In this document: one piece after another, positions 3,894 through 15,437 of the stretch | Layout of the letters: every line of letters begins with the position of its first letter | Numbering within the stretch: position 1 is the stretch's first letter | Origin: Parapedobacter lycopersici | GTDB lineage: Bacteria > Bacteroidota > Bacteroidia > Sphingobacteriales > Sphingobacteriaceae | DNA length: 64,000 nt | NCBI RefSeq assembly: GCF_024643285.1 | Contig: NZ_JAMSLW010000001.1 | Coordinates: forward strand, 434,001 to 498,000 | Direction: 5' to 3' | Notes under the pieces: model-generated | Seen by the model: only the letters and a program-made list of their open reading frames with translations | What the model was told of the DNA's origin: nothing | Database searches by the model: none | Translations under genes and position numbers: made by a program

Positions 3894-3900
3894 CTGATGT

Positions 3901-3983
3901 GCCCGGAGAGAGACTCGAACTCTCAAGGGACTGCTCCCAACGGCTTCTGAGACCGCAACGTTTACCAATTTCGCCATCCGGGC
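3901..3983 (-). tRNA. tRNA-Leu (anticodon CAG)
   Basis: The reverse strand folds as a class II tRNA of 83 nt. The acceptor stem GCCCGGA pairs with TCCGGGC, the D-arm contains GCGAAATTGGTAAAC, the anticodon loop is CTCAGAA with CAG in the middle, a long variable arm follows, and the T-arm contains GTTCGAGTC. The long variable arm and CAG anticodon identify leucine. CCA is not encoded. The anticodon stem includes G-U wobble pairs. Confidence 0.93.
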
Positions 3984-11905: not shown

Positions 11906-11923
11906 CCGCACTCAGAACAGCTA

Positions 11924-13456
11924 ATGACAAAAAAAAATAAGAATAAAAAAAATAATGTGAAGGAAGTCGATGTCGTGCTTATCGGGGCTGGCATCATGAG
12001 TGCCACACTGGGCACATTAATTAATGAACTTCACCCCAGCGCCAGTATTGAAATTTTTGAACGGCTAGACGAAGTAGCAGCTGAAAGTTCAGATGCCTGG
12101 AATAATGCTGGAACAGGACATTCCGCGCTATGCGAACTGAATTATACGCCGCAGCGGCCCGATGGCACGATCGATATCAATAAAGCCATCAAGATTGCCG
12201 AGGCATTTGAGGTGTCCAAGGAATTCTGGTCGTATCTGGTTGCTCAACGCTTAATCGACAGTCCCGATCGTTTCATTCGTAGCATTCCACACATGAGTTT
12301 TGTATTCGGTCGGGAAAACGTGGATTTTTTGCGCAAACGGCACGAAACCATGAGCAAGCACCATCTTTTCCACGGGATGGAGTATACGGAAGACCATGAG
12401 TTGCTCAGGCAATGGATTCCCCTGATTATGGAGGGTAGAGATTCGGAGGAAAAACTGGCCGCTACCAAAATTGATATTGGCACCGACGTGGATTTTGGTG
12501 AGTTAACCCGGGCACTATTCTTTCACCTGGTACAGAAAAAAGGAATCAAGCTCCGTTTGGCAAATGAAGTGCGCGACATCGAGCGGGCAAATGACGGTCG
12601 GTGGGATATCACGGTAAAGAACCTTACTACCGACAAAAAAAGGAAATTCCGCGCAAAATTTGTCTTCATTGGAGCCGGTGGAGGCTCACTCCTGCTGCTG
12701 GAAAAATCGGAAATTCCCGAAGCAAAAGGGTTCGGAGGTTTTCCCGTAAGCGGTCAGTGGTTACGCTGTACCAATCCGGATGTTATTGCAGCACATCATG
12801 CGAAGGTCTATGGTAAGGCTGCAGTAGGCTCCCCTCCTATGTCAGTTCCACACCTGGATACGCGTGTGATCGATGGAAAGACAGCCTTGCTGTTTGGACC
12901 ATATGCTGGTTTTTCAACAAAATTCCTTAAAAACGGTTCCTGGCTCGATCTGGCGTCATCCATTAAATTGGGCAATATCCGGCCAATGCTTGCAGCAGGT
13001 ATGGACAACCTCCCACTTACCAAATATTTGATCGACCAGGTACGGCAAAGCCCGGAAGACCGGCTAAACGCATTACGTGCTTATGTTCCCACGGCGAAAA
13101 AGGAAGATTGGGAACTGGAAATCGCAGGCCAACGGGTACAGGTAATCAAAAAAGATGAAAAACATGGCGGCGTACTGGAATTCGGTACAGAAGTAGTGAG
13201 CAGCGCCGACGGCTCTATTGCTGCCCTACTGGGCGCATCGCCTGGCGCATCAACCTCCGTATCGATTATGATCGAGTTGCTGGCGCGGTGTTTCCCCGAA
13301 CGGGCAAAGACGGCCCAATACCTTGATAAGCTGCATGAGATGATCCCGTCTTATGGGCTTTCCATCGCCGCAGATGAACGGCTTTGCAAAGAAACACGGG
13401 CGCGATCGGCCGCTATTCTGCAACTGGACAGAACCGGAGAAATGGTCTGGCCATAA
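11924..13456 (+). CDS. mqo: Malate:quinone oxidoreductase
   Basis: A membrane-associated FAD enzyme of about 510 residues that oxidises malate to oxaloacetate and reduces quinone in the TCA cycle and respiratory chain. After a Lys/Asn-rich start, VDVVLIGAGIMSATLG (GAGIMS at 21-26) forms the FAD-binding fold typical of Mqo. Further family landmarks are SSDAWNNAGTGHSALCELNYTP and GASPGASTSVSIM near the C-terminus. Length matches bacterial Mqo (about 490-550). The ATG at 11924 is preferred over 11903 because the predicted promoter covers the upstream one. The gene is monocistronic and ends at a hairpin terminator. The membrane quinone route fits the nearby sucAB genes as part of the same cycle. 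Confidence 0.95.
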   Translation: MTKKNKNKKNNVKEVDVVLIGAGIMSATLGTLINELHPSASIEIFERLDEVAAESSDAWNNAGTGHSALCELNYTPQRPDGTIDINKAIKIAEAFEVSKEFWSYLVAQRLIDSPDRFIRSIPHMSFVFGRENVDFLRKRHETMSKHHLFHGMEYTEDHELLRQWIPLIMEGRDSEEKLAATKIDIGTDVDFGELTRALFFHLVQKKGIKLRLANEVRDIERANDGRWDITVKNLTTDKKRKFRAKFVFIGAGGGSLLLLEKSEIPEAKGFGGFPVSGQWLRCTNPDVIAAHHAKVYGKAAVGSPPMSVPHLDTRVIDGKTALLFGPYAGFSTKFLKNGSWLDLASSIKLGNIRPMLAAGMDNLPLTKYLIDQVRQSPEDRLNALRAYVPTAKKEDWELEIAGQRVQVIKKDEKHGGVLEFGTEVVSSADGSIAALLGASPGASTSVSIMIELLARCFPERAKTAQYLDKLHEMIPSYGLSIAADERLCKETRARSAAILQLDRTGEMVWP

Positions 13457-13536: not shown

Positions 13537-13542
13537 CAGCAC

Positions 13543-13652
13543 TTATGGGGTGCTTCATAGCAAGCTGAGATTATACCCAATGGAAAGCAGGTATCGTTCC
13601 CAATACACTGCTACCCATACACCTGATCCGGATAATGCCGGCGTAGGGATTT
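13543..13652 (+). promoter_or_regulatory. TPP riboswitch (THI element)
   Basis: The two conserved blocks of the thiamine pyrophosphate aptamer are plain: GGGGTGC (13547-13553) with CTGAGA (13565-13570) and ATACCC, then ACCTGATCCGGATAATGCCG (13621-13640) ending GCGTAGGGA (13641-13649). Between them an extended P3 stem is visible (GCAG...CTGC). The outer P1 stem looks weak by eye. There is no terminator between the aptamer and the pnuT start 65 nt downstream, only a small hairpin (13680-13695) without a T-run, so control is probably at translation. TPP binding should lower expression of the transporter and of the coupled downstream gene. Confidence 0.93.
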
Positions 13653-13716
13653 ATATTTGCCGCTTCGTTCTGAATGTGAATACTTCCATAAGTATGTAAT
13701 GGCTGCATAACATACC

Positions 13717-14349
13717 ATGATGAAATTAAACGAATGGATTCACCAGTTAGGTACCGAATTAACGGCTACCCCATTGTTGCATTGGATTGGGGTAGGCTGT
13801 GGAATTGTCCAGGTACTGCTGGCTAAGGCGAACAACATTTTACTATATCCTTTTGGCATCGCCAGCATATTGATCACAGTATATGTACTGTACGATGCCG
13901 GACTTTATGCTGAATTGCTTTTGAACATGTATTACCTGGTCATGAGTATTTATGGCTGGCTGTACTGGATCAAGCGGCGCGGCGAAGAACCCGTACCGGC
14001 AACTTATTCAAGCAGGAAGGAATGGCTGATTACCTTATTGATCACGGGACTGGGTTTCCCTGCATTGTACTACGCCCTTGCGTATTTTACCGACTCAACC
14101 GTCCCTGTATGGGATGCTTGGGTAAGTGCAACGGCTTGGGCAGGAATGTGGCTGCTTGCCAAGCGCAAAATTGAGAACTGGATATTGCTGAATATCAGCA
14201 ATGCATTTGCCATTCCGTTGCTGGCCTACAAAGGGCTCCACCTTTTTGCACTGCTCACGCTCTTTTTATTCATTGTAGCGATATTCGGTTATTTTGAATG
14301 GCGTCGGATTATCGGTACGCGGACCAAAACACTAAAAGATTCCATTTGA
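13717..14349 (+). CDS. pnuT: PnuC-family transporter, probable thiamine transporter PnuT
   Basis: A 210-residue integral membrane protein with about seven helices of the PnuC (SWEET-like) vitamin uptake family. Visible landmarks are LLAKANNILLYPFGIASILI, NMYYLVMSIYGWLYW, and the closing VWDAWVSATAWAGMWLLAKRKIENWILLNI. PnuC members import unphosphorylated vitamins by facilitated diffusion; PnuT members take thiamine. The TPP riboswitch directly upstream makes thiamine the best-supported substrate here, rather than nicotinamide riboside. The start is ATG 13717 (a second ATG follows at once). The stop overlaps the next start codon by one base (TGATG), so the two genes are translationally coupled. 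Confidence 0.88.
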   Translation: MMKLNEWIHQLGTELTATPLLHWIGVGCGIVQVLLAKANNILLYPFGIASILITVYVLYDAGLYAELLLNMYYLVMSIYGWLYWIKRRGEEPVPATYSSRKEWLITLLITGLGFPALYYALAYFTDSTVPVWDAWVSATAWAGMWLLAKRKIENWILLNISNAFAIPLLAYKGLHLFALLTLFLFIVAIFGYFEWRRIIGTRTKTLKDSI

Positions 14350-15437
14350 TGAACACAGCACATCCTAATTTGTCATTTATGCCCACCGAATCGGTTATAA
14401 AAACCCTACGTGGTTACACTGCCCACGCAGAAAAAGACGGCCAGCTTACGGCGGACCAACTGGATATCATCTATGAAAACAGGTGGTTTAAATTATTTGT
14501 CCCCCGCGAATTTGACGGTTTGGACCTGGGCGTACCTGAAGGAGTCCGGCTCGAAGAGGAATTGGCATACATCGACGGTAGTCTGGGCTGGACAGTCACA
14601 CTCTGTGCCGGAGCTAATCTCTTTTCGGGTTATATTGATCCTATTCTCGCACGCGAAGTTTTTACAGACCCACAGGTGTGCTTGGGTGGTAGCGGCCGAC
14701 CTTCGGGTACCGCAACAGTAAAAGACGGAGGCTACGAAGTGAATGGCATGTGGCGTTACGCGACAGGGGCGCCGCATAACACACAGTTTACAGCTAATTG
14801 CATTATTGAGCAAGATGGCGAGCCGGTGCTTGACAGCGAAGGCAACCCATTGATAAAATCATTCTTTTTTGACCAAAAAGATGTTCGCATCGTGTCCGAC
14901 TGGAATACTTTTGGACTGAAAGCCACCGCCAGCCATTCATTCGAGGTAAAGAATGTTTGGGTAGACCAGCGGCACTCTTTCTTGATTTTACCCGAACACG
15001 CTCGTCAGGACAGCCCAATTTACCGGTATCCGTTTATCCCATTTGCACAAACAACATTAGCCGTGAATACATTGGGGATGGCCAGGCACTTCATAGCGTG
15101 TTGTGAGGACTTTGCGATGAGATACAATCAGATTGGAAAAACAAACAAAATGCTGGAAGGATTGCTTCAACAGGGTGTTGAACGGGTTACAACAGCAAAG
15201 CATTCTTTCTATGAGGTATTAGATTCCTCCTGGGAGGTGTTTCTGCAGAATGGTCAGCTTACGGAAATCATGCTGCAGCGTATTGCGGAAACAAGCCGTG
15301 CATTAGTCAGTGTTTCTCAGGACGCCGTGGTTTCATTATACCCCCACTGTGGCATTATCGCCGCGGACGAATCGTCGGCTATTAACCGAATATGGCGGGA
15401 TATCTTCACGGCGAGCCAGCATAGTCTATTGCGGTGA
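14349..15437 (+). CDS. Acyl-CoA dehydrogenase-fold flavoprotein coupled to pnuT
   Basis: A 362-residue protein of the acyl-CoA dehydrogenase superfamily. It has the helical N-terminal domain (LTADQLDIIYENRWFKLFVPREFDGLDLG), the middle beta domain (GGYEVNGMWRYATGAPHNTQFTA), and a helical C-terminal domain. The WRYATGA segment and overall shape recall the flavin-dependent monooxygenase branch (HpaB/DszC-like) more than true acyl-CoA dehydrogenases. The catalytic Glu of fatty-acid enzymes could not be placed. Its ATG overlaps the pnuT stop, so it belongs to the TPP-regulated transcript. A role in processing thiamine or a thiamine-related compound is an inference from context; the biochemical reaction is unknown. 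It converges on the methyltransferase gene with 5 nt between stops. Confidence 0.75.
   Translation: MNTAHPNLSFMPTESVIKTLRGYTAHAEKDGQLTADQLDIIYENRWFKLFVPREFDGLDLGVPEGVRLEEELAYIDGSLGWTVTLCAGANLFSGYIDPILAREVFTDPQVCLGGSGRPSGTATVKDGGYEVNGMWRYATGAPHNTQFTANCIIEQDGEPVLDSEGNPLIKSFFFDQKDVRIVSDWNTFGLKATASHSFEVKNVWVDQRHSFLILPEHARQDSPIYRYPFIPFAQTTLAVNTLGMARHFIACCEDFAMRYNQIGKTNKMLEGLLQQGVERVTTAKHSFYEVLDSSWEVFLQNGQLTEIMLQRIAETSRALVSVSQDAVVSLYPHCGIIAADESSAINRIWRDIFTASQHSLLR

Follow-up and report, generated by a model that had tools for sequence, protein, structure and literature searches.

Why should a vitamin B1 uptake gene, standing behind a riboswitch of the thiamine pyrophosphate (TPP) class, be followed at once by the gene of an apparent oxygenase? 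The question is raised by a locus of Parapedobacter lycopersici within a stretch of 64,000 nucleotides (positions 434,001 to 498,000 of contig NZ_JAMSLW010000001.1, part of an assembly that totals 3,619,545 bases over 22 contigs), which was analysed as a whole and is referred to here as the window. On its plus strand, a TPP aptamer (RF00059, 13536-13666) precedes a pnuT-type gene for a membrane transporter of the PnuC family (13717-14349, 210 aa), which in turn overlaps a gene (14349-15437) for a protein with the acyl-CoA dehydrogenase (ACAD) fold, referred to here as the flavoprotein. This order, proposed in an initial annotation, is confirmed: the aptamer scores 51.7 bits, the transporter matches PF04973 (168.4 bits, cut-off 27.3) and the PnuC structure 4qtn (E 5.4e-7), and the pnuT stop and the flavoprotein start share the letters TGATG (14347-14351). 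The open reading frame of the flavoprotein could be opened from 14298, and a start at the coupled ATG (14349) gives a protein of 362 aa. Of the known thiamine operon parts and their partner, the window brings together only riboswitch, pnuT and oxygenase. The answer developed below is that the transporter and the flavoprotein are inherited together, that the flavoprotein is probably a two-component flavin monooxygenase, and that it may act on whatever thiamine compound the transporter admits.

The evidence that carries this argument comes from an even draw of 201 genomes from the host's family. Matches to the window's PnuT included a strong group of 117 rows (E at most 4.1e-57, at least 51% identical to the window protein), hereafter the PnuT type; the next row stood at 1.5e-34 and 35% identity, and the weaker rows listed, which are only part of their number, reached at most 37%. 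The flavoprotein was found in 122 of the 201 genomes, with one match each, and in all 117 of those with the PnuT type, in 116 of which it lies directly downstream on the same strand, at a median gap of 62 bases between the matched segments. No case of the PnuT type without the flavoprotein occurred among the 201. From presence lists transcribed by hand from the family searches, the co-occurrence gives a Fisher p of 1.7e-50, a value overstated in that the genomes are related and kinship was left uncorrected. In the exceptional genome, G037 (L167:4176-5863), pnuT is followed by a gene for a 338-aa hydrophobic protein of no recognised family. In a wider draw of 296 genomes from the phylum, the flavoprotein model matches 22, and in nine of these, the window included, pnuT lies at most 1.5 kilobases (kb) upstream; the same nine loci hold the nine strongest PnuT matches (at least 260 bits, the next at 211). 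The pair was seen in Sphingobacteriaceae, Chitinophagaceae, Cyclobacteriaceae and one further family.

The operons themselves were read at named loci, the best 80 of 384 relatives retrieved with two short peptide patterns, with neighbouring genes named by eye except where a family search is given. At 74 of the 80, pnuT lies just upstream of the flavoprotein, and a TPP aptamer, defined as a 3' core with at most six substitutions and a CTGAG within 150 bases 5' of it, heads the operon in 61 of these 74; contig ends truncate two, and 11 are without. Two architectures recur. Firstly, in Mucilaginibacter and others (architecture A), the TPP aptamer is followed by a TonB receptor, pnuT, the flavoprotein, a PafA alkaline phosphatase, ThiE and a protein with the fold of thiamine pyrophosphokinase (TPK), not every gene being present in each locus. 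One such locus, L072, was confirmed by family search, with TonB domains, ThiE (PF02581, 135 bits) and PafA (NF042991, 782 bits, above cut-off). Secondly, in Niabella, Olivibacter, Pedobacter, Sphingobacterium, Parapedobacter and others (architecture B), the aptamer, where present, is followed by pnuT and the flavoprotein only; mqo lies 5' of the pair in Parapedobacter and at the two loci from Sphingobacterium. The grouping of PnuT with a TonB receptor and TPK, which the initial annotation had given as usual, is thus encountered in operons of the Mucilaginibacter type, where the flavoprotein is interposed. Conservation, in adjacency at 116 of 117 family genomes and in the aptamer at 61 of 74 loci, supports the functional tie that it had drawn between transporter and flavoprotein.

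A tree of 69 flavoprotein rows, one of an original 70 (L169) having been dropped for poor alignment, places all 50 pnuT-linked rows inside one supported group of 60 (98/97), with the ten unlinked rows scattered within it; three of these, for example, stand beside a linked Algoriphagus protein. This pattern fits one origin of the linkage followed by several later separations, with the proviso that it does not by itself establish a single origin; several rows have long branches, and the root is the midpoint only. In one further locus (L154), a distant flavoprotein relative overlaps an amidohydrolase-like gene and comes after an ABC (ATP-binding cassette) permease-like gene, as judged by eye; this is another transporter-linked context.

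The window's aptamer is itself a modest match. In a targeted scan it scored E 1.6e-9 over model positions 1-105, matching RF00059 at full length, including the conserved CUGAGA and ACCUGAU...AGGGA cores; its score falls 2.6 bits short of the Rfam gathering score (54.3), and its variable stretch runs to 35 nucleotides against seven in the model. A fast Rfam scan across the whole window did not list it, and a TPP search of the host's own genome returned four matches, two above the cut-off, with the window's aptamer among those below. A fortuitous resemblance was considered and is rejected on the E-value, on recurrence at 61 of the 74 loci, and on the single stray site that the aptamer pattern produced in 982,163 bases searched on both strands. 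In the leader, the 5' arm of P1 (ACTTATGG, 13541-13548) can pair alternatively with CCATAAGT (13686-13693), shortly 5' of the pnuT ATG, making it a candidate switching helix. The minimum-free-energy fold is not unusually stable (z-score -1.35), and by eye no T-run terminator stands between the aptamer and that ATG. On the predicted fold, the alternative pairing before the start of pnuT is a possible translational switch. The second-best TPP match of the genome (55.8 bits, C18:7938-8034; L036:4939-5035, minus strand) sits between the 3' end of a plus-strand gcvP-like reading frame, identified by eye, and a TMEM220 gene, pointing at that frame and followed by a hairpin with a T-run, with no downstream gene visible; it can be read as an orphan switch or as the scar left by a lost gene.

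What kind of enzyme has been placed behind the transporter? By sequence, the flavoprotein matches PF08028 (38.7 bits), with PF02771 below its cut-off and no other Pfam model to E 0.1, and its best solved relatives are Rv3094c (E 1.1e-30), HsaA, XiaF and HPAH C2; NCBIfam scores remain well below cut-offs (HsaA 87 of 450, HPAH 49.5 of 650). An AlphaFold (AF2) model (52 rows; predicted local distance difference test, pLDDT, 96.0) was closest in structural comparison to HsaA, Rv3094c, XiaF, HPAH C2 and 2or0, at Z 40-44, followed by the cysteine dehydrogenase ColB1 (35.3) and then by acyl-CoA dehydrogenases and other oxygenases at 33-35; Foldseek ranks the same families first. Rv3094c (7f70, 7f72, 7f74) shares the fold (7f72, Z 43.8, root-mean-square deviation 2.0 over 343 residues) at 24% identity, and HsaA, XiaF and HPAH C2 share it at 17-22%. 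The contacts to flavin mononucleotide (FMN) in Rv3094c, as given in the part of PMC9904262 used here, were mapped by alignment and their conservation scored over 47 pnuT-linked rows. Five of them, W80, G113, W174, T347 and H351, correspond to W81, G114, W185, T354 and H358, none of which varies among the 47; in Rv3094c the last of them, H351, has been proposed to donate the proton to the hydroperoxyflavin (PMC9904262). Facing the substrate, an invariant Gly116 and Ala233 take the place of W115 and the gate residue F221 of Rv3094c, and C86, C111, N240 and Q357 are invariant in the pnuT-linked rows and not common to Rv3094c. As judged from these alignments, the core of an oxygenase site appears to be retained and the pocket is distinct. 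Sequence, model and several conserved flavin-site residues together point to a two-component (group D) flavin monooxygenase. An acyl-CoA dehydrogenase, as a first guess, is rejected, the HsaA, Rv3094c and HPAH oxygenases being closer by some 6-10 Z and having the C-terminal histidine in common. Of the 'HpaB/ACAD type' given in the initial annotation, the ACAD half stands on the structural matches; the HpaB half falls away, since the Pfam scan (E at most 0.1) listed no HpaB model, only PF08028 and the sub-cut-off PF02771. No reductase partner was recognised by eye beside the gene, and no search aimed at reductases was made.

The arrangement is best understood against the thiamine uptake operon OMthi-pnuT-tnr3 of gut Bacteroidetes, which encodes receptor, transporter and kinase. 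The operons described here have in common with it a TPP riboswitch, a TonB-dependent receptor, a PnuT facilitator and a TPK-type protein; they differ in that a flavin monooxygenase stands directly after pnuT, that PafA and ThiE can follow, that the window is reduced to riboswitch, pnuT and oxygenase, and that the present TPK-fold protein has no Pfam match. An enzyme that uses O2 would be expected in aerobes only, and the lifestyles concerned are aerobic in the present lineage and anaerobic in the gut Bacteroidetes. On that ground it is expected that the main text of the paper on the B. thetaiotaomicron transporter, the part used here, contains no word starting 'flavo' (PMC5613172). According to the same part of that paper, PnuT of B. 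thetaiotaomicron pairs with TPK, the next gene being the kinase tnr3 (PMC5613172); in the present lineage an oxygenase takes that place. The nicotinamide riboside uptake system PnuC-NadR is a second point of comparison, sharing the transporter family and the placing of a transporter beside a modifying enzyme, and differing in that the partner here is an oxygenase rather than a kinase and in the low identity of the weaker PnuC-type rows noted above. A NadR-like kinase was seen by eye near six of seven such weaker loci outside the family (L184-L187, L191-L193).

Our tentative preference, held at just short of an even chance, is that the oxygenase serves salvage by acting on a thiamine compound taken up from outside; the best reading of its chemistry is that of an O2-dependent enzyme working on what PnuT brings in. 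The locus would be a TPP-repressed thiamine-uptake operon in which PnuT, as an inner-membrane facilitator, has a two-component flavin monooxygenase for its conserved partner. At low TPP the riboswitch would open, and PnuT and oxygenase would be made together by coupled translation, the former admitting a compound of the thiamine family. A reductase presumably encoded elsewhere would supply reduced FMN or flavin adenine dinucleotide (FAD), with which the oxygenase would form a C4a-hydroperoxyflavin, with His358 as proton donor, and oxygenate the imported compound. The most likely result would be that damaged or modified thiamine, or its pyrimidine or thiazole piece, is restored to a form usable by ThiE or the TPK-fold protein. 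ThiC was not found in the host's genome, rated 99% complete, and the host therefore probably relies on pyrimidine salvage. PnuT is reportedly a facilitator, as the title of Jaehme et al. 2018, cited in PMC7749635, puts it, and its cargo should therefore need trapping by something; the chemical change may also trap the imported compound inside the cell. The fuller claim, that this is an O2-dependent step of vitamin B1 salvage in which a monooxygenase obligately accompanies PnuT in aerobic Bacteroidota and makes a thiamine derivative from the environment usable, is possible and is held with more doubt.

Some observations weigh against this reading, both as to the enzyme and as to its association. 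The oxygenases DszC, TdsC and KijD3 score no better in structural comparison than acyl-CoA dehydrogenases, with ColB1 at 35.3, and the mixed character of this lower group means that the assignment to an oxygenase class rests on nearness to the HsaA/HPAH branch. Only five of 12 FMN-contact positions of Rv3094c carry the identical residue in every row. The FMN-bonding W115 of that enzyme is the glycine already mentioned; V114 has become S; F136 is replaced by Y in 46 of 47 rows; S138 appears as T or S and L179 as L or M; S184 is retained in 41 of 47; and F352 has mostly given way to S or A. The flavoprotein is found without the PnuT type in five of 122 family carriers and apart from PnuT in G037, without pnuT within 1.5 kb at 13 of its 22 phylum matches, and with no neighbouring pnuT at six of the 80 named loci (L077, L081, L118, L124, L132, L137). 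Control by thiamine is likewise incomplete, as all seven other named Parapedobacter loci and four further loci carry the pair without an aptamer. In these Parapedobacter loci (L058-L064) mqo abuts or overlaps pnuT and no aptamer was found between; thiamine control seems to have been lost here, and pnuT is perhaps transcribed together with mqo. A looser pattern applied to the four aptamer-less loci and three of Parapedobacter gave no match, and an Rfam scan of eight genus-mate loci (L006-L013) found no aptamer; with four further loci scanned too, only the window's own locus had one. Among the 30 first relatives, the Rfam scan placed an aptamer in four, namely the window's own locus (L005) and L019, L025 and L029. 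These loci extend no further than 1.5 kb 5' of the flavoprotein match, too little to take in the TonB-led operon heads, and aptamers with long inserts score less well; searching the 80 longer loci with the pattern recovered more. Finally, ThiC is present in 58 of 122 flavoprotein carriers against 22 of 79 non-carriers (Fisher p 0.008, kinship uncorrected). For the initial annotation, which had asked how often the flavoprotein follows a riboswitch and pnuT and had named its occurrence without either as the pattern that would count against a tie, the outcome is accordingly divided: adjacency to pnuT is borne out, a universal riboswitch is not (11 of the 74 pnuT loci being aptamer-less), and the adverse pattern does occur. 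The functional tie is still supported, and the suggestion that the enzyme may act on thiamine or a derivative of it is a reasonable one.

Several of the same facts are explained if the oxygenase is protective. PnuT may also admit thiamine antagonists or oxidised thiamine, which do most harm at low TPP, and the oxygenase would destroy them, the vitamin not being its substrate. Detoxification of this kind explains why none of the 117 PnuT-type genomes is without the enzyme, why 58 of 122 carriers keep the pair alongside ThiC, and why the enzyme persists without PnuT in five of 122; moreover, Rv3094c, the nearest relative of solved structure, oxidises a drug that contains sulfur (PMC9904262), its locus having been studied for drug oxidation where ours lies in a thiamine operon with no reductase recognised beside it. 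Nevertheless we regard this as unlikely, as the companions of the pair in architecture A, namely ThiE, the TPK-fold protein and the PafA phosphatase, resemble genes of salvage and not of defence.

Less likely again is that the cargo of PnuT is not thiamine at all, and is instead an oxidisable precursor from which the flavoprotein makes a thiamine building block for ThiE. In its favour, the TPK_catalytic domain was found in none of 176 family genomes, so imported thiamine needs some other kinase, and ThiE-like proteins are present in all nine genus genomes and are TPP-headed in the host's own. Against it stands a candidate for the missing kinase. The last gene of L072 (L072:9495-10058) encodes a protein with no Pfam match, PF04263 included, nor any NCBIfam match to 0.01, and a profile of this protein found no TPK by sequence; its model (pLDDT 90), however, has 25 matches in the PDB at E at most 0.001, of which 21 chains are named thiamine pyrophosphokinase, the B. 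thetaiotaomicron enzyme first, and the other four, not so named, are chains of 3cq9. With its N-terminus MSSHHI it is found in 178 of the 201 family genomes, one match each, including the host's own (C18:336727-337296), with no match in G003 or G068. Its predicted fold suggests that it may be the family's thiamine pyrophosphokinase and may do the kinase's job. A standard TPK, which we take the motif GDxDSF to mark, adjoins the PnuT-like gene at two (L189 and L190) of the three loci read from family f23, and not at the third (L188). Genomes with ThiC also keep the pair, which tells against a precursor. A further candidate, the pair as a simple replacement for lost pyrimidine synthesis, is rejected on the ThiC counts given above, ThiC being somewhat commoner in carriers than in non-carriers. 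On contig C20 of the host's genome (L035:4523-7080) a TPP aptamer is followed by an S-adenosylmethionine methyltransferase, an AIRS-family protein (HypE/ThiL-like, below both cut-offs) and a divergent ThiE-like protein; the same gene order was seen by eye in two genus-mates where ThiC was not found (L165 and L166, from G068 and G003), and the set is possibly an alternative thiamine module.

Least probable is that the flavoprotein performs some general oxidation and is a passenger inherited with pnuT by operon linkage only, a view that can point to relatives in other contexts (six of 80 named loci, 13 of 22 phylum matches) and to the retention of the pair without riboswitch in Parapedobacter, but that accords poorly with the one-way rule over 201 genomes by which the PnuT type never lacks the flavoprotein, with a pair spanning Sphingobacteriaceae, Chitinophagaceae, Cyclobacteriaceae and one further family, and with the confinement of all 50 linked rows to one supported group of 60, in which the ten unlinked are scattered.

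With salvage of an imported thiamine compound retained as the preferred explanation, it is worth asking what would be new. The operon logic (TPP switch, TonB receptor, PnuT and TPK) and the enzyme class are already known, and the pairing is apparently undescribed: no description of it was found in the open-licence papers searched. In the part of Table 2 of PMC3766115 used here, Bacteroidaceae are the sole Bacteroidetes group, and the main text of that paper, supplements apart, contains neither 'acyl-CoA' nor 'COG1960' nor 'flavoprotein'. A further activity, probably oxygenation, accompanies the transporter in 116 of the 117 PnuT-type family genomes and in relatives outside the family. Were the reading true, it would add a new enzyme activity to thiamine metabolism, and the PnuT found here would carry oxidisable relatives of thiamine and not thiamine alone. 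Should imported thiamine compounds prove to be the enzyme's substrates, vitamin B1 salvage would gain a step, and the presence of a PnuT gene would mean something else in predictions of auxotrophy and vitamin exchange. With transporter, enzyme and regulator all available, the system lends itself to direct testing.

The surroundings of the locus are of lesser moment. Upstream, on the same strand, lies mqo, for malate:quinone oxidoreductase (11921-13456; PF06039, 804 bits over 11921-13453). The gene downstream of the flavoprotein is on the opposite strand and matches an RNA methyltransferase family. A tRNA match on the minus strand at 3900-3983 is the sole Rfam match above gathering score in the window.

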